A stretch of 64,000 bases of DNA from Candidatus Jettenia sp. AMX2. GTDB lineage: Bacteria; Planctomycetota; Brocadiia; Brocadiales; Brocadiaceae. This document shows, one piece after another, positions 5,484 to 36,185 of the stretch. Within the stretch, counting starts at the first letter, position 1; the number at the start of each line of letters is the position of its first letter. A program made the translations under genes and the position numbers. The notes beneath the pieces were generated by a model, which saw nothing but the letters and a program-made list of their open reading frames with translations, was not told the origin of the DNA and did no database searches. Location of the stretch: positions 558,001 to 622,000 of the forward strand of contig CP129469.1 in assembly GCA_030583665.1 (NCBI GenBank), read 5' to 3'.

Positions 5484-6152
5484 TCATTTTAATTCGTCTA
5501 TGGCTGTTGATATTCCTGAAGTCTTGGAACACTTTTTCAGTAAATTACAAATTTCTGTCGTATCATCGAATAACTGAAAAAGTTCAAAATCTTCGCTGCT
5601 TATTGTTTTTTCCACAACAAGGGTATTTTTCATCCAGTCAATTAATCCCTTCCAGTATTCACTGCCGAAAAGTATTATGGGGAAAGTATCTATTTTGTGT
5701 GTTTGGACGAGGGTAAGTGCTTCAAAGAGTTCATCAAGGGTACCAAATCCGCCAGGGAAGATAACAAAAGCCACGGCATATTTAATGAACATGAGCTTTC
5801 TCAAAAAAAAGTATCTGAAGTTGAGGGTGATATCCTGATACTTATTGGGAATTTGTTCGAGTGGCAGATCGATATTCAGGCCGACCGATTTACCTTTGCC
5901 CATCTTTGCTCCTTTGTTTGCTCCTTCCATAATCCCGGGACCACCGCCTGTAATAACACAAAAACCTGATTCGGAAAGCATTTTTCCCAATTCTTCGGAC
6001 TTTTGGTAATAGTAGGAGTCGGCTTCGAGCCTTGCGCTCCCGAAGATGGTTACTGCCGGGCCGAGATTGTAAAGGTTTTCAAAACCTTCTACAAGTTCTG
6101 ACTGAATTCTGAATACACGCCAGGTATCTGTCTTTCTTAAATCTTCGATCAT
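5484..6152 (-). CDS. LOG-family protein (TIGR00730 Rossmann fold nucleotide-binding)
   Basis: LOG-family enzymes hydrolyse nucleoside 5'-monophosphates to free base and ribose 5-phosphate (cytokinin-activating phosphoribohydrolase; related to nucleotidase PpnN). The protein shows VTIFGSARLEADSYYY near residues 33-48, the phosphate-binding GGGPGIMEGANKGA, and the signature PGGFGTLDELFEALT. Its 222 residues fit the family. It is cytoplasmic, with no signal peptide. It stands alone on the minus strand, divergent from proB. The substrate in this organism is not evident. Confidence 0.9.
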   Translation of the reverse strand: MIEDLRKTDTWRVFRIQSELVEGFENLYNLGPAVTIFGSARLEADSYYYQKSEELGKMLSESGFCVITGGGPGIMEGANKGAKMGKGKSVGLNIDLPLEQIPNKYQDITLNFRYFFLRKLMFIKYAVAFVIFPGGFGTLDELFEALTLVQTHKIDTFPIILFGSEYWKGLIDWMKNTLVVEKTISSEDFELFQLFDDTTEICNLLKKCSKTSGISTAIDELK

Positions 6153-6437
6153 ACTCTTCTCCCTTTCTGCTCATTACAGGATATAGTGTAAAACTAGCCT
6201 AAATATAGTAGCTTAATTTATTTGAGTCAACAGAAAAGGCGAAGAAAAGGCCCCTGGAACAGATTTTGGAAAAAATGAATCCGATGATAAACATTGCCTT
6301 AAATTTATTTCGTTTAATATCAAATAATGGTTTTTGTATAATATACCTAATCCGAACGAGCAGGAAGAAAACAGTACTATTGTATATTACTTCAATGCTT
6401 TAAACAAAAACCCCTTCCGGTAAACCTGGTATATGAC

Positions 6438-7580
6438 ATGAAGAGAAAAGATGAAAAACGGTATCAGATTTTATCCAAAGCAAAGAAGGTCGTTGTCAAG
6501 ATAGGGACAGGTGTTCTGACTAACGAAGAAGGCTTTCTTGACAGGGCACAGATAAAAGGTCTGGCAAAGCAGGTTGTAGAATTACGGAAAATGGGATACC
6601 GTGCGGTTGTGGTAAGTTCCGGGGCAATTGGTTCAGGGATGGGGGAGTTAGGAATCGGGAAAAGGCCTGGTACGTTGCCTGAACTGCAGGCTATAGCTGC
6701 GATTGGTCAGAGCAAGTTGATTAGTATGTATGATGCATGTTTCAGATCTCATGGTTATCATGCGGCTCAAATACTTCTTACCAGGGAAGATTTTGAGGAC
6801 CGGCAAAGGTACCTGAATACCTGCAATACTATTCATGCGTTATTTCATCTCAATGCTATTCCTGTAGTAAATGAAAATGATACAATTTCCGTAAATGAAA
6901 TCAGATTTGGTGACAACGATGAACTTTCTGCTCTGGTGACAAATCTCCTGAATGCTGAATTACTGATTATCCTTTCTTCCGTTGATGGATTATATGACGG
7001 ATATCCGGCGGAGAATAGCAAGGCATCGGTTATTTCTGTGGTAGAAGATGTTTCTGATGATATCCGCCGTTTGGCATTTAATACAAAGACACAACGGGGG
7101 GTCGGGGGCATGCAGACCAAGATAGAGGCAGCATCTGTTGTAGTAAAAGCAGGGGAAGCAGTGATTATTGCAAATGGGAGAACAGATAAGATTTTGAAAA
7201 GGATTGTAGAGGGTGAAAATATCGGCACCTTATTTTTACCGAAAAAGAAAAAACTTGCAAACCGTAAGAGATGGATCGGGTTTACGATAAAACCAAAAGG
7301 CAAGGTCTGCGTTGACGATGGGGCTATGTGTGCCTTAACCGGCAAGGGGAAAAGTTTACTTGCTTCCGGTATTGCGTCGGTAGAGGGAGCCTTTACCAAG
7401 GGAGATATTATTTCTATTTGCAGGAAAGGAAACGGGGTTGTGTTTGCCAGAGGTCTTACAAATTATTCTTCCGAAGAGATTGAGAAGATTAAAGGATGCA
7501 GTACGTCTGCTATTGCCAAAGTGCTCGGTTATAAACTTTACGATGAGGTTATTCACCGGGATAATATGGTGTTGTTGTAA
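6438..7580 (+). CDS. proB: Glutamate 5-kinase
   Basis: ProB phosphorylates the gamma-carboxyl of glutamate, the first step of proline synthesis. The amino-acid kinase domain starts VVVKIGTGVLTNEEGFLD, with VVSSGAIGSGMGELG, the glutamate-binding VVNENDTISVNEIRFGDND and TQRGVGGMQTKIEAA. A C-terminal PUA domain occupies residues ~280-370 (KGKVCVDDGAMCAL onward), as in E. coli ProB. At 380 residues it is full length. proA is not adjacent. A perfect -10 element TATAAT lies at 6337-6342, about 95 bp upstream, with only a weak -35. The gene converges on msbA. Confidence 0.96.
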   Translation: MKRKDEKRYQILSKAKKVVVKIGTGVLTNEEGFLDRAQIKGLAKQVVELRKMGYRAVVVSSGAIGSGMGELGIGKRPGTLPELQAIAAIGQSKLISMYDACFRSHGYHAAQILLTREDFEDRQRYLNTCNTIHALFHLNAIPVVNENDTISVNEIRFGDNDELSALVTNLLNAELLIILSSVDGLYDGYPAENSKASVISVVEDVSDDIRRLAFNTKTQRGVGGMQTKIEAASVVVKAGEAVIIANGRTDKILKRIVEGENIGTLFLPKKKKLANRKRWIGFTIKPKGKVCVDDGAMCALTGKGKSLLASGIASVEGAFTKGDIISICRKGNGVVFARGLTNYSSEEIEKIKGCSTSAIAKVLGYKLYDEVIHRDNMVLL

Positions 7581-7641
7581 TTGTATAAGAATTCCATGGG
7601 GAAAGAATAACCGGGTTGGAGCCGGATCAGACGCGGTATTT

Positions 7642-9421
7642 TTAGAACCCGGAAGATGCAAATTGCATGTTGTACAACTCCTGATAAAGTCCTCCTTGCA
7701 TGATCAGGTCTTCGTGCCGGCCCTGCTGTATTATTTTGCCACCGCTCATGACGGCTATCCTCGTTGCCTTTTTTACGGTAGAAAACCTGTGGGCAATGAC
7801 CACCGTCGTCCTGCCTTCCATGAGCCTTTCAAGAGCTTTTTGAACCTTTTGTTCGGATTCTATATCAAGAGATGATGTGGCTTCATCGAGTATCAGGATT
7901 GGAGGATTCCTGAGAATTGCCCTTGCAATCGTAATCCTCTGTTTCTGCCCCCCTGAAAGCCGTATACCACGCTCACCAATTCTTGTTTCATAGCCTTCCG
8001 GCAGTTCTCATGATAAATTCATGGGCATAGGCATCCTTTGCTGCTGCGATAATCATTTCTTCCGTTGCATCTGGCCTGCCAAATTGTATGTTTGCTTTAA
8101 TGGTATCGTCAAACAAGAGGACGTCCTGGGTAACCGTCCCTATATGTTTCCTTAAAGAATAAAGAGACAAATCTTTTATATTGACATTATCAATGTAAAC
8201 ATTACCGGTTGTAGGATTCCAGAAACCTACCGGGAGGTCTGCCAGGGTACTTTTCCCGGCACCACTATAGCCGACAAGAGCAATAATTTCATTAGGGGAT
8301 ATTTCCAGGTTGATATTTTTAAGAGCATAATCTTCTGCGGAGGGATACCTGAAAGAAACATTTTCAAAAACAATGTGTCCTTTGATCTCCTTTTCCAATC
8401 CGCCTTTTTTCTCTGGTATTTCTGTGATGATTTCTTTTAACCTTTCAATGACATTCCGGCTTTGCTGAAAATTATTGTTAACCCTGCTGAGTCTCTTGAG
8501 AGGTGTATACATCATCAGGATTGCAGTGATAAACGAGAAAAAGGAACCAGGGGTCATTTTTTCTGATATTACAAGATGTCCACCATAAAGCATAATAATT
8601 GCTATTCCGACACCACCGAGAAATTCAGCAATGAAAGACGAAAATTCATTTATCCTTGTTTCTCTCATGGTATTCCTGTAATGGTCTGTCAAAGCACTTT
8701 CGTATTTTTCGAGCATCTTTTTTTCCATAGTAAATGCTTTTATAATCTTTATACCTTGAAGACTTTCCTGGAGGATCGAGGTGATTTTTGCTATAAGCAG
8801 TCTCGTGTTCATACCCGTTTTTTTCATCCATTTGCCAAACTTGCCTATACTTAAGATAATTAAGGGTACAACCACAAAGGAGAGAAGTGCAATATCCCAT
8901 CTCCTGGTAATCGCAACAATTGCAAGTACAATTACTGTACAACCTTCTACAAAAAAATCTTTCATGGTAAAAGCTGCGGTTTCCTGGAGTAAATGAACAT
9001 CATTCAGCATTTTTGATACAACGGCAGCGCTCGGTGTTCTGTTATAAAATGAGAGCGGCAATGAGAGTAACTTTGTGAAAACGCCTTGTCTAATTGATCT
9101 TGCTATTTTTGCTCCTATGGAACTCATTAGATAATTGGTTATGAAAGAGAACAAACCTCTCATAAAGAATAAGGTAATGATGCCAAACGACAGAAGCAAC
9201 ATAAGCCCTGCTGATTTTTTTACGAACAGAGAGTCTATAACTGGCTGAATGCTCCATGCAATAGCTCCATTTATTCCGGATAGGACAAGGCTGCTGAGCA
9301 TTGCAGCCAACAGTCTCCATATATGCGGAGAAGAAAGTCCCCAAAAAATATAAATGTCACTTTTCCAGTTCTTTTCGTGTTTTTTACTAAAAGTTTCAGT
9401 TATAAATGTCTCGTTTTGCAT
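7642..9421 (-). CDS. msbA: MsbA-like lipid A/LPS flippase ABC transporter, interrupted by a frameshift
   Basis: MsbA flips core-lipid A across the inner membrane. The first frame (9421 down to ~8003) encodes the six-helix transmembrane domain, Walker A (GYSGAGKS) and the region up to AHEFIM. It then runs into a stop at 7988. The rest of the ATPase continues in another frame from ~8003 to the stop at 7642: [20 protein letters not shown], Walker B ([12 protein letters not shown]) and the His switch ([10 protein letters not shown]). Together they give ~593 residues, the normal family length. One extra base at about 8003-8008 explains the break. This is either a sequencing/assembly error or a real lesion; MsbA is usually essential, which favours error. 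ATG at 9421 is preferred over TTG at 9424. Confidence 0.9.
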
Positions 9422-28442: not shown

Positions 28443-28469
28443 ACCTCATTCGTAGTGTGGGAAAAAACG

Positions 28470-29372
28470 ATGGAATCAGCTCCGATTGTTTTGTTTGTTT
28501 ATAACAGACCTTGGCATATTCAGCAAACCATCGAAGCCTTACAGAAAAATGAATTAGCAGAGACCAGTGAATTTTTCATATTTTCGGATGGCCCAAAATT
28601 TGAGAATGATAGGAAAAAAGTATCTGATGTTCGGGAATATTGCAAAACAATTACTGGTTTTAAGAGTATAACGCTCATCGAGAGGGAACAGAATCTCGGT
28701 TTGGCACAATCTATTATTACGGGTGTTACTGAAATAATTAATAAATATGATAAAATCATAGTGCTTGAAGATGACATGATCACTTCTCCATATTTTCTAA
28801 AATTTATGAATGAGGCTTTGGAATTTTACAGAAACGAGGAAAAGGTTATATGCATTCATGGCTACATGTATCCCATCAAAAATAAATTACCTGAAACTTT
28901 TTTTTTAAGAGGAGCGGATTGTTGGGGATGGGCGACCTGGAAAAGAGGCTGGGATATGTTTGAGCCAGACGGTCAAAAACTCTTGAATGAAATAAAAAAA
29001 AGACGGCTCCAGAAGATATTTGACATAAATGGGGCTTATCCCTATACAAAGATGTTGGTTAATCAAATTCATGGGAGAAACAATTCATGGGCAACTCTTT
29101 GGCGCGCTTCCGCATTCTTAAAAGAAAAGCTTACACTTCATCCAGGAATATCGCTCATCTACAATATTGGAAATGATAATAGCGGGACCCATTGTGGGAT
29201 ATCAAATATATTTGATACTGAGATTTCCAATAAACCTATTTCTTTAGCAAAAATCCCACTTGAAGAAGATAATCTTGTATATAAAGAAATTGAAAAGTAT
29301 CTGAAATCAAAGAAGATATCTTTTTTTACTTTAATTATTAATAAGATAAAGAAATTTATAAAGCTGCAATGA
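28470..29372 (+). CDS. GT-A glycosyltransferase, GNT-I/GT2-like
   Basis: The 301-residue chain opens APIVLFVYNRPWHIQQTIEA, with FFIFSDGPKFENDRKKVSDV and the metal-site VLEDDMITSPYFLKFMNEAL. GADCWGWATWKRGWDMFEPD follows, a block characteristic of sugar-transferase proteins in polysaccharide clusters. I use the ATG at 28470; a GTG at 28455 is also possible. The next gene starts 4 bp inside its 3' end. Its specific sugar is unknown. Confidence 0.82.
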   Translation: MESAPIVLFVYNRPWHIQQTIEALQKNELAETSEFFIFSDGPKFENDRKKVSDVREYCKTITGFKSITLIEREQNLGLAQSIITGVTEIINKYDKIIVLEDDMITSPYFLKFMNEALEFYRNEEKVICIHGYMYPIKNKLPETFFLRGADCWGWATWKRGWDMFEPDGQKLLNEIKKRRLQKIFDINGAYPYTKMLVNQIHGRNNSWATLWRASAFLKEKLTLHPGISLIYNIGNDNSGTHCGISNIFDTEISNKPISLAKIPLEEDNLVYKEIEKYLKSKKISFFTLIINKIKKFIKLQ

Positions 29373-30181
29373 ATGAGCAAATTAAAAATATTATGAAAGA
29401 TTTTCTGCCCCCGGTGCTTTTTAAAATGTATCAAAACAGAAATGCAAAATATGGCTTTTCCGGTAATTATACAAATTGGAAGGAAGCGGAAGCAGCGTCT
29501 ATTGGGTATGATTCCGATGTGATAGTAAGTAAAGTTAAAGATTCCTTATTAAAAGTAAAAAAAGGTGAAGCAGCTTATGAGAGAGACTCAGTTCTTTTTG
29601 ATAAGGTTCAATATTCGTGGCCTCTTTTAGCTGCTCTTCTATGGATTGCATCACAAAATGGAAATCAGCTCAATCTAGTTGATTTTGGTGGTTCTTTAGG
29701 AAGTACATATTTTCAGAACAGAAAATTTCTTGCACATTTGAACGGATTATACTGGAATATTGTTGAACAGGAAAAGTTTGTTGAATGTGGGAAACGTCAT
29801 TTTGAAGATGAACATCTTAAATTCTACTATAGTATTGATAGCTGCTTTAGGGAACAGCATCCACATACAATTCTTTTTTCTGCCGTTATTCAATATCTTG
29901 AAAAGCCATATGACTTATTAACCGAAGTTATAAAGAAAGAATTCAGATACATAATTTTTGATAGAACACCATTCCTGGATAAAGGAAAAGACAGAATAAC
30001 TATCCAAAAAGTTTCTCCCGGTATATACCAGGCGAGTTACCCCGCCTGGTTTTTTAATAAAGAGTATTTTGTGAATTCTTTCTTATTAAGAGAGTATAAA
30101 CTCATTGTTGAGTTTGATACACATGAAAAGGTAAATATACCTTCAATATTTAAGGGATTTGTCTTCGAAAAAATGAGATAA
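29369..30181 (+). CDS. Putative methyltransferase, TIGR04325-like
   Basis: This 270-residue protein matches the pattern of the TIGR04325 putative methyltransferases. It has GFSGNYTNWKEAEAASIGYD near the N-terminus, YERDSVLFDKVQYSWPLLAA, then a modified SAM-binding motif (NLVDFGGSLGSTYFQNRKFL) and later FDRTPFLDKGKDRITIQKV. The family occurs almost only in polysaccharide clusters and its reaction is not established. It overlaps the preceding gene by 4 bp and precedes a radical SAM gene, so all three probably act on one glycan. Confidence 0.85.
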   Translation: MNEQIKNIMKDFLPPVLFKMYQNRNAKYGFSGNYTNWKEAEAASIGYDSDVIVSKVKDSLLKVKKGEAAYERDSVLFDKVQYSWPLLAALLWIASQNGNQLNLVDFGGSLGSTYFQNRKFLAHLNGLYWNIVEQEKFVECGKRHFEDEHLKFYYSIDSCFREQHPHTILFSAVIQYLEKPYDLLTEVIKKEFRYIIFDRTPFLDKGKDRITIQKVSPGIYQASYPAWFFNKEYFVNSFLLREYKLIVEFDTHEKVNIPSIFKGFVFEKMR

Positions 30182-30192
30182 GTAGAAATATT

Positions 30193-31185
30193 GTGCATAG
30201 AATTACCAACAAACTATTTAGTAAAGTTTCTACTATTTTACGCACTACAAAGGTTTTGAATAAACCTACAAATGCAATTTTTGAAATGTCAAATAAGTGT
30301 AATTTAAATTGTCCATTATGTAATACAGGTGGACTGAAAGATCGGTTTAAGCATATTCAAAGAGGAATTATGAGCTTTGATATATTTAAATCAGGGTTAG
30401 ACAAGCTACTTCCCGAAGTGAATTCAATTCTTTTATATAATTGGGGTGAACCTTTTCTTAATAAGGATTTGTTCCAATGCATTGAATATGCTTATAAGCA
30501 TAATGTAAAAACACAGCTTAGCACAAATATGATGCTGTATAGAGAAGAGATCGGGAAAGATCTTATTAAAGCAGGGCTTTCGAAGTTGATAGTTTCTTGT
30601 GATGGATTAACACAGGAGACTTACGAGAAATACAGACAGGGGGGAAGTCTGAAAAAAATTATAGATAGTGTAAATAATATCGTAGGACTAAAAAAGGAAT
30701 TAAAATCGGAAACACCATTAATTGAGATGCAATGCATAATATTTAAGTTTAATGAAGACGAAATGGGAGAATACAAAAAATTCTGGATGGCTCAGGGGGT
30801 AAATTCAACCAATTTTATAAGGATGTCCTATATGTCAAAATTAGGAAAAGATACTTCCCAAAGATTGGACCTGGTACCCGTTCGTAACGAATATCAACCT
30901 TATCATCCTTATGGAAGAGTGAAAAAGTGTATGGAGTTGTATAATCATGTTTCCATTGACTGGAATGGTGATTGGTATACATGTTGTTTTCCTTCAGGTG
31001 AGAAAGAATATAGAGTTGGTAATATAGTAACAGATGATTTTTGGAAAACATGGAATGGTGAAAGTTACAGATATTGCAGAAGGTTATTAAAAAAACGAAA
31101 ATCCGAAGGACAGTATTATGAAACTATGTGTCATGATTGCACGGGTATATATCCTAAAAAAGAAACGAAAAGGTTTTGGGAATGA
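30193..31185 (+). CDS. Radical SAM protein with SPASM-like C-terminus
   Basis: The cluster-binding CNLNCPLC (Cys36, Cys40, Cys43) marks a radical SAM enzyme that cleaves SAM with a 4Fe-4S cluster. LYNWGEPFLNKDLFQCI (the GEP motif), TQLSTNMML and KLIVSCDGLTQETYEKYRQG are typical of the core. The C-terminal third has further cysteines (CMELYNHVSIDWNGDWYTCC and a terminal CHDC), as in SPASM domains that hold auxiliary clusters. The start is GTG at 30193. It sits among sugar methyltransferases and glycosyltransferases, so a glycan or lipid modification is likelier than a peptide one. No substrate is evident. Confidence 0.9.
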   Translation: MHRITNKLFSKVSTILRTTKVLNKPTNAIFEMSNKCNLNCPLCNTGGLKDRFKHIQRGIMSFDIFKSGLDKLLPEVNSILLYNWGEPFLNKDLFQCIEYAYKHNVKTQLSTNMMLYREEIGKDLIKAGLSKLIVSCDGLTQETYEKYRQGGSLKKIIDSVNNIVGLKKELKSETPLIEMQCIIFKFNEDEMGEYKKFWMAQGVNSTNFIRMSYMSKLGKDTSQRLDLVPVRNEYQPYHPYGRVKKCMELYNHVSIDWNGDWYTCCFPSGEKEYRVGNIVTDDFWKTWNGESYRYCRRLLKKRKSEGQYYETMCHDCTGIYPKKETKRFWE

Positions 31186-31235
31186 TTGTATCAACCATTT
31201 ATGAGGCTGAGATTATTTTAGTTGAGCGGATGTAA

Positions 31236-31964
31236 TTGATTAAAAGGCTGAAAGAATCAATTAAAAGAGAGCAGTTTAGTCCTTCAATTCTTGGACTTTT
31301 TTTAGTCCCTTTTTATTTTGCCAGAAAAGGGTTATTTGAAAATATTTCCTCACTGGCAAAGTATATAAATGGCAGAGTTCTTGATGTTGGTTGTGGACAA
31401 AGACCCTATAAAAAATTATTTAATTCCTCTCAGTATATCGGCCTGGAGTTAGATACTTTCGAAAATAGAAGAAGTAAAAAGGCCGACTATTTTTACGATG
31501 GTAAGGTTTTCCCATTTCAAGATAATGAATTTGATAGTGTCATTGTTAATGAAGTTTTTGAACATGTTTTCAATCCTGTTGAATTCTTACATGAAATATA
31601 TAGAGTGTTAAAACCAGGAGGATCACTGCTCATGACAGTCCCATTTGTGTGGGATGAACATGAGCAACCTCATGATTTTGCACGATACACATCTTATGGT
31701 TTGCGGCATCTATTGGAAAAATCCGGCTTTGAAATAATCGAATATCGGAAAAGTATCTGTGATATTAGAGTGGTATTTCAGCTGCTTAATGGATATATTT
31801 ACAAAAAAACAGTTACAAAAAATATTTATGCAAACATGCTCATTACAGCTTTTTTAATATCCCCGTTTAACATTTTGGGTGAGTTGCTTTCCAAAGTATT
31901 GCCAAAGAATGAAGATTTATATCTTGATAATGTATTGCTTTTAAAGAAAAAAATGTCCCTATGA
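31236..31964 (+). CDS. Class I SAM-dependent methyltransferase (type 11)
   Basis: This 242-residue methyltransferase has GRVLDVGCGQRPYKKLFNSS, YIGLELDTFENRRSKKADYF and FDSVIVNEVFEHVFNPVEFL, then IYRVLKPGGSLLMTVPFVWD. Its C-terminal half has two weakly hydrophobic segments. I accept a TTG start at 31236, with GAGCGGA upstream, because no ATG precedes the core. Its stop overlaps the start of the next epimerase gene by 4 bp. Such enzymes methylate hydroxyls or acids in surface glycans; the target here is unknown. Confidence 0.87.
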   Translation: MIKRLKESIKREQFSPSILGLFLVPFYFARKGLFENISSLAKYINGRVLDVGCGQRPYKKLFNSSQYIGLELDTFENRRSKKADYFYDGKVFPFQDNEFDSVIVNEVFEHVFNPVEFLHEIYRVLKPGGSLLMTVPFVWDEHEQPHDFARYTSYGLRHLLEKSGFEIIEYRKSICDIRVVFQLLNGYIYKKTVTKNIYANMLITAFLISPFNILGELLSKVLPKNEDLYLDNVLLLKKKMSL

Positions 31965-32962
31965 GAAACTTCCGGGAATTTACCAATGCAAGAGTGCTTA
32001 TTACCGGTGGGCTTGGTTTTATTGGTTCATCCCTTGCCAGACGATTGATTCAATTTGATGCAAAGGTTACATTAGTAGATAGTCTCATACCTCTCTATGG
32101 TGGCAATCTTTTTAATATTCACGATATAAAAGACCAGGTGACAGTAAATATCAGCGATATTAGGGATCCTTACGCCATAGCATACCTTGTTCAGAAACAG
32201 GACTATTTATTTAACTTGGCAGGTCAAACCAGTCATATAGATTCTATGAATGATCCACAAACCGACCTGAATATTAATGCTTTAGCACAGTTATCCATTC
32301 TTGAAGCCTGTCGCAAATATAATCCGGATATAAGGATTATCTTTGCAAGTACCCGGCAGGTTTACGGCAAGCCGAAATATCTGCCGGTAAACGAAAAACA
32401 TCCCATTTGCCCTGTTGATGTGAATGGTATTAATAAGCTGGCGGGAGAATGGTACCACTTACTTTATAATAACGTTTATAAGATCCGATCATGTGTATTA
32501 CGGTTAACCAATACCTATGGGCCCGGCATGCGGGTGAAAGATGCGCGCCAAACATTCCTGGGAATTTGGTTGAAGAACTTAATTGAAGGTGTGCCAATTA
32601 AGGTATTTGGTGATGGATTACAATTACGTGATTTTAATTATATTTATGATGTAATAGACGCCTTCCTGATAGCGGCTGTTAACCATAAAGCTTATGGTGA
32701 GGTATTTAATTTGGGAAGTACCCAATATATAAATCTAAAAGATTTGGCCGTTTTGCTTATTGATATTATTCAAAGAGGGTCATTTGAGATAGTACCCTTT
32801 CCGCCCGAGCTTAAGGGAATTGATATTGGTGATTATTATAGTGATTATACTAAGATTAATCAATCTTTGGGCTGGTCGCCCAAAGTCTCACTTCAGGAAG
32901 GATTGCAAAAAACCATAGAGTACTATATTCATAATGGGACTCATTACTGGGGAAAGAGATGA
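31961..32962 (+). CDS. Extended-SDR nucleotide-sugar epimerase/dehydratase with Asn in place of the catalytic Tyr
   Basis: This 333-residue protein has the NAD-binding VLITGGLGFIGSSLARRLI, FNLAGQTSHIDSMNDPQTDL, the Ser/Thr region IIFASTRQVYGKPKYLPVNE and a C-terminal SLGWSPKVSLQEGLQKTI. At the expected YxxxK motif the sequence reads VNGINKLAGEWYH: the Lys is kept but the Tyr is Asn. Such enzymes act on UDP-, GDP-, dTDP- or CDP-sugars. The change may alter or abolish the usual redox step. It overlaps its neighbours on both sides by 4 bp and precedes an aminotransferase, so it may supply its keto-sugar substrate. Confidence 0.87.
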   Translation: MRNFREFTNARVLITGGLGFIGSSLARRLIQFDAKVTLVDSLIPLYGGNLFNIHDIKDQVTVNISDIRDPYAIAYLVQKQDYLFNLAGQTSHIDSMNDPQTDLNINALAQLSILEACRKYNPDIRIIFASTRQVYGKPKYLPVNEKHPICPVDVNGINKLAGEWYHLLYNNVYKIRSCVLRLTNTYGPGMRVKDARQTFLGIWLKNLIEGVPIKVFGDGLQLRDFNYIYDVIDAFLIAAVNHKAYGEVFNLGSTQYINLKDLAVLLIDIIQRGSFEIVPFPPELKGIDIGDYYSDYTKINQSLGWSPKVSLQEGLQKTIEYYIHNGTHYWGKR

Positions 32963-34056
32963 TATTGATGAATGACTTCCGGGCAGAACCTGCTGAACTT
33001 ATACAGAGTGAGGTTGCTGCTGTTGAGAAGGTGATTAAGTCTGGTTGGTTCGTTCTTGGAAACGAAGTCGAGAGTTTTGAAACAGCCTGGGCTGATCGCT
33101 GCGGGGTAAATTATGCTCTGGGTGTAGGTAACGGAATGGATGCCATTGAAATAGGCCTGCGAACACTTAATATTGGTCCAGGAGATGAGGTTATTACAAC
33201 ACCGGTGACTGCTTTTGCTACTGTATTAGCGATTGTTCGCGCCGGTGCGACACCTGTGTTTGCTGATATTGATACAGATACGGCTTTACTGAATCCTGTA
33301 AGTGTTGGGCGATGCCTGTCGCCTCGTACTAAGGCAATCTTGCTTGTTCATCTTTATGGTCAGGTACGGGATATGGATACATGGGTTGCATTCTGTAAAC
33401 ATGCTGATATTTATTTACTGGAGGATTGTGCCCAATCACACTTAGCTTTTTGGAAGAATAAGACTGCCGGATCTTTTGGTGCGTGGGGAGCCTATAGTTT
33501 TTATCCTACAAAGAATTTGGGCACGATAGGTGATGGAGGAGCAATAATCACGGATTCGGTAACTATTGCAAGCCAAGCCAGGATATTGCGCAATTATGGA
33601 CAAACTCAACGCTATTATCATGCAGCGCTGGGCTTAAACAGCCGTCTGGATGAAATACATGCCGCTATTTTAACTATACGTCTTGGCTGGTTTGATCTTT
33701 TTGCTGCAAGACGGAAAAAAATTGCACAAGCCTATTTTGATAGTATAAAAAATCCGCTCATTCGTTTATTGGCTAAACCAACAGATTGTGATAATCATGT
33801 TTATCATCTTTTTGTAATCCTGTGCGATGAGAGAGACCGTTTTAGTACTTACCTTAGAGAACACGGGATAGATAATCTCATTCATTATCCGATACCTGTT
33901 CATCATCAGCCACCATGCAGAAATATGCAATACGACCCAAAAGGCATGTCTCATGCCGAATATTTTACCGCCCGTTGTCTCTCCATCCCATGTCATCCCC
34001 AAATGAGTGATAACGATGTTAATAAGGTAATAGAAGTTATCAATGAATTCAGATAA
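32959..34056 (+). CDS. DegT/DnrJ/EryC1/StrS-family sugar aminotransferase
   Basis: This PLP enzyme aminates keto-sugars bound to nucleotides. It has VIKSGWFVLGNEVESFETAW, CGVNYALGVGNGMDAIEIGL, VITTPVTAFATVLAIVRAGA, VDLV-type LLEDCAQSHLA and the PLP-Lys region FYPTKNLGTIGDGGAIITD. The 365-residue length is typical and the ATG at 32959 is preceded by the upstream gene's end with 4 bp overlap. It is the only aminotransferase in the region, so the surface glycan probably contains an amino-deoxy sugar, made from a keto-sugar of the RmlA/RmlB-like or the neighbouring SDR branch. Confidence 0.93.
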   Translation: MILMNDFRAEPAELIQSEVAAVEKVIKSGWFVLGNEVESFETAWADRCGVNYALGVGNGMDAIEIGLRTLNIGPGDEVITTPVTAFATVLAIVRAGATPVFADIDTDTALLNPVSVGRCLSPRTKAILLVHLYGQVRDMDTWVAFCKHADIYLLEDCAQSHLAFWKNKTAGSFGAWGAYSFYPTKNLGTIGDGGAIITDSVTIASQARILRNYGQTQRYYHAALGLNSRLDEIHAAILTIRLGWFDLFAARRKKIAQAYFDSIKNPLIRLLAKPTDCDNHVYHLFVILCDERDRFSTYLREHGIDNLIHYPIPVHHQPPCRNMQYDPKGMSHAEYFTARCLSIPCHPQMSDNDVNKVIEVINEFR

Positions 34057-35005
34057 ACCGACAGAGCACTTTGTTACCTTGTTCTACAGTAACTTTTTAC
34101 CCATGGGAATGGCGCTTCATAGTTCTCTCAAGGCTCATGCACAAACGTTCCATTTATGGATTTTATGCATGGATGAGTTGGTTGAAAAGCAATTAAAAAT
34201 GATTTCTTTGCCCAACGTAACATTGATTTCATTAAAAGAAGTTGAAACAAAAGAATTAGTAGATGTGAAATCTGTTCGAACATTGGGTGAATATTGCTGG
34301 ACATTAACACCGTTTACACCACAGGTTGTATTTGAAAGAGACCCAACTGCGGACCGAGTTACTTACCTGGATGCCGATATTTTCTTTTTTGACGATCCAA
34401 GTATCCTGATTCAGGAATTAGATCAGAATAGAAAGCATGTTTTAATTACAGAACATGCTTACGATCCTTACTATGATCAATTGCTTGCAAGTGGACGTTT
34501 TTGCGTCCAGTTTTTAACTTTTAGAAGAACGGAGCAAGCTGTAAGAGTTATGAAATGGTGGCAATCCAGATGTCTGGAATGGTGTTTTGCCCGTTTGGAA
34601 GATGGAAAATTTGGTGATCAAAAATATCTTGATTATTGGCCGGAGTTATTTGGCGATGTGGTACACATTGTCCAACAAACCGAGAAGACTCTGGCACCCT
34701 GGAATGTATTCTATATTGAGAAAAAAAGGAAAAAATTAGAAGATGTTGTCTTTTATCATTTTCATGGCTTAAGGATAATCAGTCCATATAATGTCAGACT
34801 ATACCATGGTTATAGAATAGGAAAACAGGGATTGGTTTTGTATAAGCAATATTTGGATAATTTAAAGAAACATCTCAGCTTATTAAATACACAGCATATT
34901 GCAATACCATATAGTAAACCACCAGAAGAAAAATGGGGAATGCTGCGTTACCTTAAAAGAAGAGTAATGAAAACAACACGTTTTGCTACGATTCATTATT
35001 TATAA
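34043..35005 (+). CDS. GT-A glycosyltransferase, GT8-like
   Basis: The 320-residue chain opens HFVTLFYSNFLPMGMALHSS, resembling the start of GT8 enzymes that track a retained substrate. It has the DxD motif RVTYLDADIFFFDDPSILI, then GRFCVQFLTFRRTEQAVRVM, WWQSRCLEWCFARLEDGKFG and DQKYLDYWPELFG, and ends FYHFHGLRIIS. This pattern is typical of retaining GT8/nucleotide-diphospho-sugar transferases of polysaccharide clusters. It begins 14 bp inside the aminotransferase gene and is the last gene of the packed block from 24862. Confidence 0.82.
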   Translation: MNSDKPTEHFVTLFYSNFLPMGMALHSSLKAHAQTFHLWILCMDELVEKQLKMISLPNVTLISLKEVETKELVDVKSVRTLGEYCWTLTPFTPQVVFERDPTADRVTYLDADIFFFDDPSILIQELDQNRKHVLITEHAYDPYYDQLLASGRFCVQFLTFRRTEQAVRVMKWWQSRCLEWCFARLEDGKFGDQKYLDYWPELFGDVVHIVQQTEKTLAPWNVFYIEKKRKKLEDVVFYHFHGLRIISPYNVRLYHGYRIGKQGLVLYKQYLDNLKKHLSLLNTQHIAIPYSKPPEEKWGMLRYLKRRVMKTTRFATIHYL

Positions 35006-35180: not shown

Positions 35181-36185
35181 CTACGGTTTCCACTCCGACT
35201 CAGTCACCAAAGTACGGTCACGTAGTGGTTTCCACCATGAGCGGTGATCCACATACCAGTCTATGGTCCCGGCGATCCCGACACTGAAGGCAATATTCGG
35301 TTTCCAGTGCAGTTCCTCCCTGATCTTGTCCGAACAGAGCAGGTAACGTCTGTCGTGACCCGGTCTGTCATGAACGATCGTCTTGAGGGAGTGAGGTTTT
35401 CCCAGAGCATCAAGGATTGTGTCGGCGATTTCCATCACGCACTTCTCTGTTCCGGTGCCGACGTTGTAGGTCTCTCCGACCCGACCGTGGGTTATGATCG
35501 ACTCTACGGCTGCGCAGTGATCCAGGACATGAATCCACTCGCGCCTATTGGCTGTTGAAGCGTATAGCGGCAACGGCTGATTATCGAGGGCCAATGTGGT
35601 AAACAAGGGGATTATCTTCTCGGGGAACTGGAAAGGGCCATAGTTGTTGCAGCAGATCGATATAGTGACAGGGATACGAAAGGTCTCGAAGTAGGCACGG
35701 ACCGCATGGTCTGCACTTGCCTTCGATGCATTATATGGCGTCCTTGGACGGTATGGCGATTCTTCGGTGAAGCAGGTATCGGAATCCAGGGCCAAATCTC
35801 CGTATACCTCGCAAGTGGATACATGGTGGAAGCGGGCCATGCCTACTCGTCGGGCAGCCTCGAGCAGCGTTTGCGTTCCCAACACGTTGGTGAGGAAGAA
35901 CCGAGACGGGTCTACTACAGCCAGGCTGTTGTGGGACTCAGCGGCGAAGTTTACCACGACATCGATCTTCTCATCGCGCAGTAGCTGTTCCATCATGGTT
36001 ATATCTCCGATGTCGCCGTGTACGAAGCGATAGCGTCCTTCCATGTCCAGGAGATTCTTCCGATTGCCGGCATATGTAAGTAAGTCGAGGACCACCATTC
36101 GGTCTTCAGGGTGTCTTTCACCCCAGAAGTGCACGAAGTTCGATCCGATGAAGCCAGCACCGCCGGTGACCAGTAGTCTTGTCAT
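35181..36185 (-). CDS. RmlB-like dTDP-glucose 4,6-dehydratase family protein, GC-rich
   Basis: This 334-residue extended SDR resembles RmlB: LLVTGGAGFIGSNFVHFWGE, VNFAAESHNSLAVVDPSRFF, YNASKASADHAVRAYFETF with the Tyr151/Lys155 pair, and ICCNNYGPFQFPEKIIPLF. Two key motifs differ from textbook RmlB: the catalytic Asp-Glu pair reads Cys125-Glu126 (HVSTCEVYGDL), and the SHVDRSI region reads SHNSLAV. It may therefore be a specialised paralogue. The gene is clearly richer in G+C than its neighbours and is oriented against them, suggesting transfer. It could act on RmlA's product. Confidence 0.88.
   Translation of the reverse strand: MTRLLVTGGAGFIGSNFVHFWGERHPEDRMVVLDLLTYAGNRKNLLDMEGRYRFVHGDIGDITMMEQLLRDEKIDVVVNFAAESHNSLAVVDPSRFFLTNVLGTQTLLEAARRVGMARFHHVSTCEVYGDLALDSDTCFTEESPYRPRTPYNASKASADHAVRAYFETFRIPVTISICCNNYGPFQFPEKIIPLFTTLALDNQPLPLYASTANRREWIHVLDHCAAVESIITHGRVGETYNVGTGTEKCVMEIADTILDALGKPHSLKTIVHDRPGHDRRYLLCSDKIREELHWKPNIAFSVGIAGTIDWYVDHRSWWKPLRDRTLVTESEWKP

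Follow-up and report, generated by a model that had tools for sequence, protein, structure and literature searches.

The third gene of a seven-gene surface-glycan cassette in the anammox planctomycete Candidatus Jettenia sp. AMX2 encodes a radical SAM protein with a twitch domain, designated here as rSAM-A, and this protein is likely a tailoring enzyme acting on a carbohydrate. A carbohydrate target is likely because the gene lies in a sugar cassette without a peptide gene, BtrN is the nearest solved structure, and the genomic neighborhoods of the wider family are rich in glycosyltransferases. Of the role proposed in the first-pass annotation (epimerization, dehydrogenation, or C-methylation of a glycan), the sugar target is retained on these grounds over a peptide, and C-methylation is dropped. 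The most probable single reaction, ahead of epimerization, is a BtrN-like dehydrogenation tailoring a surface-glycan carbohydrate, and this reaction is assigned tentatively. The window (the whole stretch of 64,000 nucleotides that was analyzed) lies in a genome of 3.46 Mb consisting of a single contig.

Table 1. Positions in the window of the cassette genes and of the cysteine motifs in rSAM-A
Feature	Position	Strand	Basis
Cassette gene 1, glycosyltransferase (GT2/GNT-I-like)	28455–29372	+	Pfam, synteny
Cassette gene 2, TIGR04325 (LIC12133) family methyltransferase	29369–30181	+	NCBIfam 2.1e-69, above cut-off
Cassette gene 3, rSAM-A, radical SAM/twitch-domain protein	30193–31185	+	ORF, Pfam, homolog alignment, AlphaFold model, family profile
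CNLNCPLC, radical SAM cluster motif (C36, C40, C43)	30298–30321	+	Invariant in 40/40 homologs
Twitch domain, C246-x12-G-x4-C264 ... C313-x2-C316	30928–31140	+	Homolog alignment, BtrN alignment
Cassette gene 4, class I SAM methyltransferase (Methyltransf_11/23)	31236–31964	+	Pfam
Cassette gene 5, extended SDR, nucleotide-sugar dehydratase/epimerase family, Asn155 instead of the catalytic Tyr in YxxxK	31961–32962	+	Pfam, alignment
Cassette gene 6, DegT/DnrJ/EryC1 sugar aminotransferase	32959–34056	+	Pfam; nearest solved relatives 7b0d, QdtB, DesV
Cassette gene 7, GT8-like putative glycosyltransferase	34043–35005	+	Synteny; weak Pfam match below cut-off

Cysteine motifs and structural relatives of rSAM-A

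The reading frame of rSAM-A (330 residues) coincides exactly with the region in which a radical SAM protein bearing CNLNCPLC had been annotated. Its GTG start is backed by the orthologs, since the alignment begins at the first residues. Two Pfam domains score above the gathering threshold, Radical_SAM (PF04055, 1.2e-10) and SPASM (PF13186, 7e-12), and the CX3CX2C motif inside the former places the protein in the radical SAM superfamily. The cysteines were compared within the family profile A3, which has 40 members (four orthologs and 36 others at 25–32% identity); a second profile, A1, contains the orthologs only. C36, C40, C43, and four cysteines in the C-terminal part (C246, C264, C313, and C316) are kept in 39–40 of the 40 homologs. 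Loss of the cluster cysteines in orthologs was looked for, and they are retained. Among the remaining cysteines, C265 is the most conserved (35/40), and C295 is not conserved.

A full SPASM domain has seven cysteines (CX9–15GX4C ... CX2CX5CX3C ... C) and two auxiliary clusters. The first half of this pattern is present in rSAM-A as CX12GX4C, and neither CX5CX3C nor the final cysteine is found after C313-x2-C316. The four conserved C-terminal cysteines align with those of BtrN. The earlier placement among SPASM enzymes thus holds for the C-terminal cluster cysteines and for the PF13186 match, but the domain is of the shortened, one-cluster twitch type and lacks the second half of SPASM. This type, as defined in the literature, is commonly exemplified by BtrN and MoaA (PMC9012708). 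Judging from the BtrN alignment, C246, C264, C313, and C316 are the predicted ligands of one auxiliary [4Fe-4S] cluster. C-methylation by rSAM-A was set aside, since the Pfam search for a B12-binding domain gave only PF04055 and PF13186; the protein has a twitch domain instead of a cobalamin-binding one, and ordinary methyltransferases are encoded on both sides.

When compared with solved structures, A3 matches BtrN best (6e-26), in both domains and with all four twitch cysteines aligned. The second-best structure is BlsE, a sugar-nucleoside enzyme (2e-14), and the match to DesII (4.5e-7) covers the radical SAM domain only. The relation to BtrN-like sugar and aminocyclitol dehydrogenases in both domains rests on the wider family, because A1 alone matches BtrN weakly (9e-5, radical SAM domain), and the 36 wider-family members behind this link may have other functions. 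The neighbors of the wider-family genes are rich in glycosyltransferases, with GT2 matches in 16 of the 46 neighbors sampled. The AlphaFold model of rSAM-A (mean pLDDT 86) gives BlsE (4e-13), CteB, BtrN, and DesII as the top four Foldseek matches. Three of the four are carbohydrate enzymes, but the fold alone leaves the choice between sugar and peptide unsettled because the scores are similar for both kinds of enzyme.

No plasmid homolog of rSAM-A was found at 1e-20. A scan of genome contigs with the ortholog profile, using two peptide patterns, returned only the two relatives already seen and says little about other phyla, the genomes outside the phylum being sparsely sampled. At three other loci (L042, 5821–16001; L046, 4224–13293; L049, 6638–10961), at least three radical SAM/SPASM genes belonging to the wider family lie in a stretch of approximately 10 kb amid glycosyltransferases.

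The cassette and its amino-sugar core

The seven genes (28455–35005) are separated by gaps of at most 50 bp. The same gene order is found at L038 (G001), L040 (G012), and L039 (G025), whose rSAM-A proteins are 87%, 68%, and 72% identical to that of the window, respectively; the L039 contig stops inside the aminotransferase gene. The outer genes differ between the loci, a Wzx-type flippase in the others being found at the position of the ABC exporter in the window. The cassette SDR occurs in 7 of 33 Brocadiaceae genomes; among 62 genomes of the order, these seven are also the only ones with the TIGR04325 methyltransferase. At L040 (10207–11916) and L077 (10731–12446), the glycosyltransferase and the TIGR04325 methyltransferase are fused in one ORF of approximately 570 residues, which suggests joint action of the two proteins.

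The neighborhood in the window encodes Gmd, an Fcl-like protein, RmlA, RmlB, a Wzm/Wzt-type ABC exporter, and several glycosyltransferases and methyltransferases. The region had been described as an O-antigen operon; these genes fit a surface-glycan locus, but its product could be an LPS O-antigen, an S-layer glycan, or an exopolysaccharide. The rmlB gene (35181–36185, minus strand) has a GC content of 0.54, against 0.33–0.42 in the cassette, and looks foreign to the locus.

No precursor peptide had been visible to the first-pass annotation, and none emerged on comparison with relatives. The gaps leave no room for one within the cassette, and among the small intergenic ORFs of the four orthologous loci, none is common at E ≤ 0.01. 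This result and the sugar-gene neighbors at all seven cassette loci argue against modification of a peptide or protein by rSAM-A, for example an S-layer or other cell-surface protein, which we consider quite improbable. Many SPASM and twitch enzymes do act in this way, and in structure CteB and SuiB come roughly as close to rSAM-A as BtrN does. The twitch domain also serves MoaA (PMC9012708) and is discussed for the sactisynthase SkfB (PMC6231123). As context, the S-layer of Kuenenia is heavily glycosylated, with a strongly methylated O-glycan containing a 174-Da residue not identified there (PMC5088730). The SPASM peptide maturases (anSME, CteB, SuiB, and PqqE), which share the superfamily and give comparable fold scores, typically have two auxiliary clusters, whereas rSAM-A is predicted to have one and has no peptide gene nearby. 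A close match to a characterized peptide-modifying family was also sought: of the NCBIfam families for radical SAM proteins, such as TIGR04317, WgkB, PapB, and the mycofactocin maturase, none is above cut-off among the matches listed (25 of 44), the best scoring 92.8 bits against 380.

The nearest solved relatives of the DegT protein given in Table 1 are followed by other 3-aminotransferases, and 4-aminotransferases are less near; we take 7b0d, QdtB, DesV, and like structures to be C-3 aminotransferases. The Asn residue replacing Tyr in YxxxK of the SDR persists down to approximately 47% identity but is missing from the two most divergent members seen and from ordinary SDRs. This SDR type is conserved in a planctomycete subfamily and is often followed by a DegT aminotransferase. 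SDR-DegT pairs without an rSAM gene in the slot are found in other Planctomycetota, in two cases with a GT8-like protein. The cassette of G020 (L077) is also complete except for the rSAM gene, with the fused glycosyltransferase-TIGR04325 gene overlapping the next methyltransferase gene by 4 bp, and no close rSAM is encoded elsewhere in that genome (best 6.6e-12). The amino-sugar core is thus probably independent of the rSAM, because the SDR-DegT pair occurs without it in G020 and in other Planctomycetota.

The position of the core bears on a further possibility, that rSAM-A supplies a 3-keto sugar for the DegT protein in place of an FdtA/QdtA ketoisomerase. The nearness of the DegT protein to 3-aminotransferases agrees with such a role, as does the search for FdtA (PF05523), which gave no match in G000, G012, and G025 and one borderline match in G001. 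However, the SDR, DegT, and methyltransferase genes are all present in G020, which has neither an rSAM in the slot, nor a close one elsewhere, nor FdtA, and the SDR-DegT pairs elsewhere likewise occur without rSAM and FdtA. The ketone-supplying role is highly improbable and was set aside because the cassette of G020 keeps the SDR-DegT pair without the rSAM.

Candidate reactions of rSAM-A

BtrN, the 2-deoxy-scyllo-inosamine dehydrogenase of butirosin synthesis, resembles rSAM-A in combining a radical SAM domain with a twitch domain that has one four-cysteine auxiliary cluster. It also acts beside a DegT-type aminotransferase and on an amino-substituted ring. The two differ in that BtrN belongs to an antibiotic pathway and has 250–270 residues, whereas rSAM-A comes from a surface-glycan cassette, in which its gene is optional.

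In a BtrN-like dehydrogenation, the SDR and DegT proteins would make a nucleotide-activated amino sugar without rSAM-A, as the cassette of G020 supports, and the substrate of rSAM-A would be that amino sugar or a glycan of which it is a component. SAM would be cleaved by the 4Fe-4S cluster at C36, C40, and C43 to give a 5'-deoxyadenosyl radical, which would abstract a hydrogen atom from a C–H(OH) carbon. The auxiliary cluster at C246, C264, C313, and C316 would take up the second electron to form a ketone as in BtrN. The ketone might be retained, reduced with inverted stereochemistry, or re-aminated by the DegT protein in the manner of BtrS after BtrN.

A NeoN-like sugar epimerase, in which a hydrogen atom is abstracted at the carbinol carbon and a cysteine returns one on the other face, would share the target class and the cassette. 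The candidate hydrogen donors are C96 and C181, which are present in all four orthologs and absent from the other family members, and C136, a further extra conserved cysteine outside the clusters. However, judging by eye from the sequence, Tyr and Met occupy the positions of C181 and C136 in rSAM-B, the protein found in the same slot in other genomes, and the nearest solved relative, BtrN, is a dehydrogenase. Epimerization is the leading alternative to dehydrogenation but is considered rather unlikely.

BlsE (cytosylglucuronate decarboxylase), the top Foldseek match and the best profile match after BtrN, acts on a sugar, but its sequence match is confined to the radical SAM domain and it decarboxylates in blasticidin S synthesis. 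DesII (TDP-4-amino-4,6-dideoxyglucose deaminase) is a radical SAM enzyme acting on a nucleotide amino sugar, has a near fold, and works beside DegT aminotransferases, though it is a larger protein with a weak match. In desosamine synthesis, DesII comes after an aminotransferase, and DesV is the second aminotransferase. A deaminating, dehydrating, or decarboxylating action of rSAM-A (DesII-, AprD4-, or BlsE-like) would agree with the presence of DesII and BlsE among the nearest structures and with a cassette that would make an amino sugar, a parallel to desosamine synthesis, its DegT protein being near DesV. This action is nevertheless improbable, since the family matches DesII at 4.5e-7 versus BtrN at 6e-26, and the cassette has no second aminotransferase, its single one being present without the rSAM in G020.

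Sugar-acting radical SAM enzymes are known from antibiotic pathways. In the open-licence literature, the one paper found to name radical SAM along with O-antigen and SPASM deals with something other than a sugar-acting enzyme of this kind.

The variable slot and probable exchange of the TIGR04325-rSAM block

The contents of the slot between the TIGR04325 methyltransferase and the next methyltransferase should be noted. In the seven cassette genomes, the slot holds rSAM-A in four (G000, G001, G012, and G025) and rSAM-B in two (G006 and G029), and is empty in G020. rSAM-B of G006 (L090) is 26% identical to rSAM-A and has one auxiliary-cluster pattern, without the glycine of GX4C. Its relative in G029 (L091), about 79–83% identical to it, is split over two frames. 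At L091 (3659–12473), the genes for Wzx, rSAM-B, DegT, and FkbM are in pieces, owing to either decay or assembly error. A search of 294 genomes from the phylum, G006 and G029 not among them, gave no relative of rSAM-B at 1e-35 and so carries little weight.

The genes on the two sides of the slot have different histories. G025 and G006 are 90% identical in the SDR and DegT proteins (partial in G025) and 55% identical in the TIGR04325 methyltransferase, and their rSAMs are not orthologous. The TIGR04325 tree rejects the grouping of G025 with G006 (p-AU 7e-71), whereas the SDR-DegT tree rejects that of G025 with G012 (p-AU 0.0009), the pair favored by TIGR04325 and rSAM-A; both p-AU values are optimistic because the clades were chosen after the identities had been seen. 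The GC content is 0.29–0.33 in the TIGR04325-rSAM block and 0.38–0.46 in the SDR and DegT genes, the next methyltransferase gene being equally low. Since the history of TIGR04325 conflicts with that of SDR-DegT, the TIGR04325 and rSAM genes look block-swapped, and exchange of this block by recombination would be the simplest account.

An exchangeable block would make the modification an optional, lineage-specific decoration. The modification is thus probably strain-specific, as observed at the gene level and presumed for the chemistry. It is possible, though somewhat doubtful, that the serotype of anammox surface glycans is varied by swapping two genes (methyltransferase and rSAM), the two distantly related rSAMs giving two different modified sugars. 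If true, a swappable rSAM slot in a surface-glycan cassette would bring radical sugar chemistry into the variation of cell surfaces. With the cassettes otherwise alike, the three natural states of the slot (rSAM-A, rSAM-B, and no rSAM) allow the function to be tested without genetics, through a comparison of the glycans of existing anammox enrichments.

Other Brocadiaceae have a separate radical SAM/twitch group (L051, 9390–11142; L045, 9610–11362), adjoined by a GT2 gene in the vicinity of gyrA and with no close match in the genome of the window. Near the radical SAM gene at L051, a DruA-domain protein (PF14236) adjoins a DDE transposase (6137–8457).
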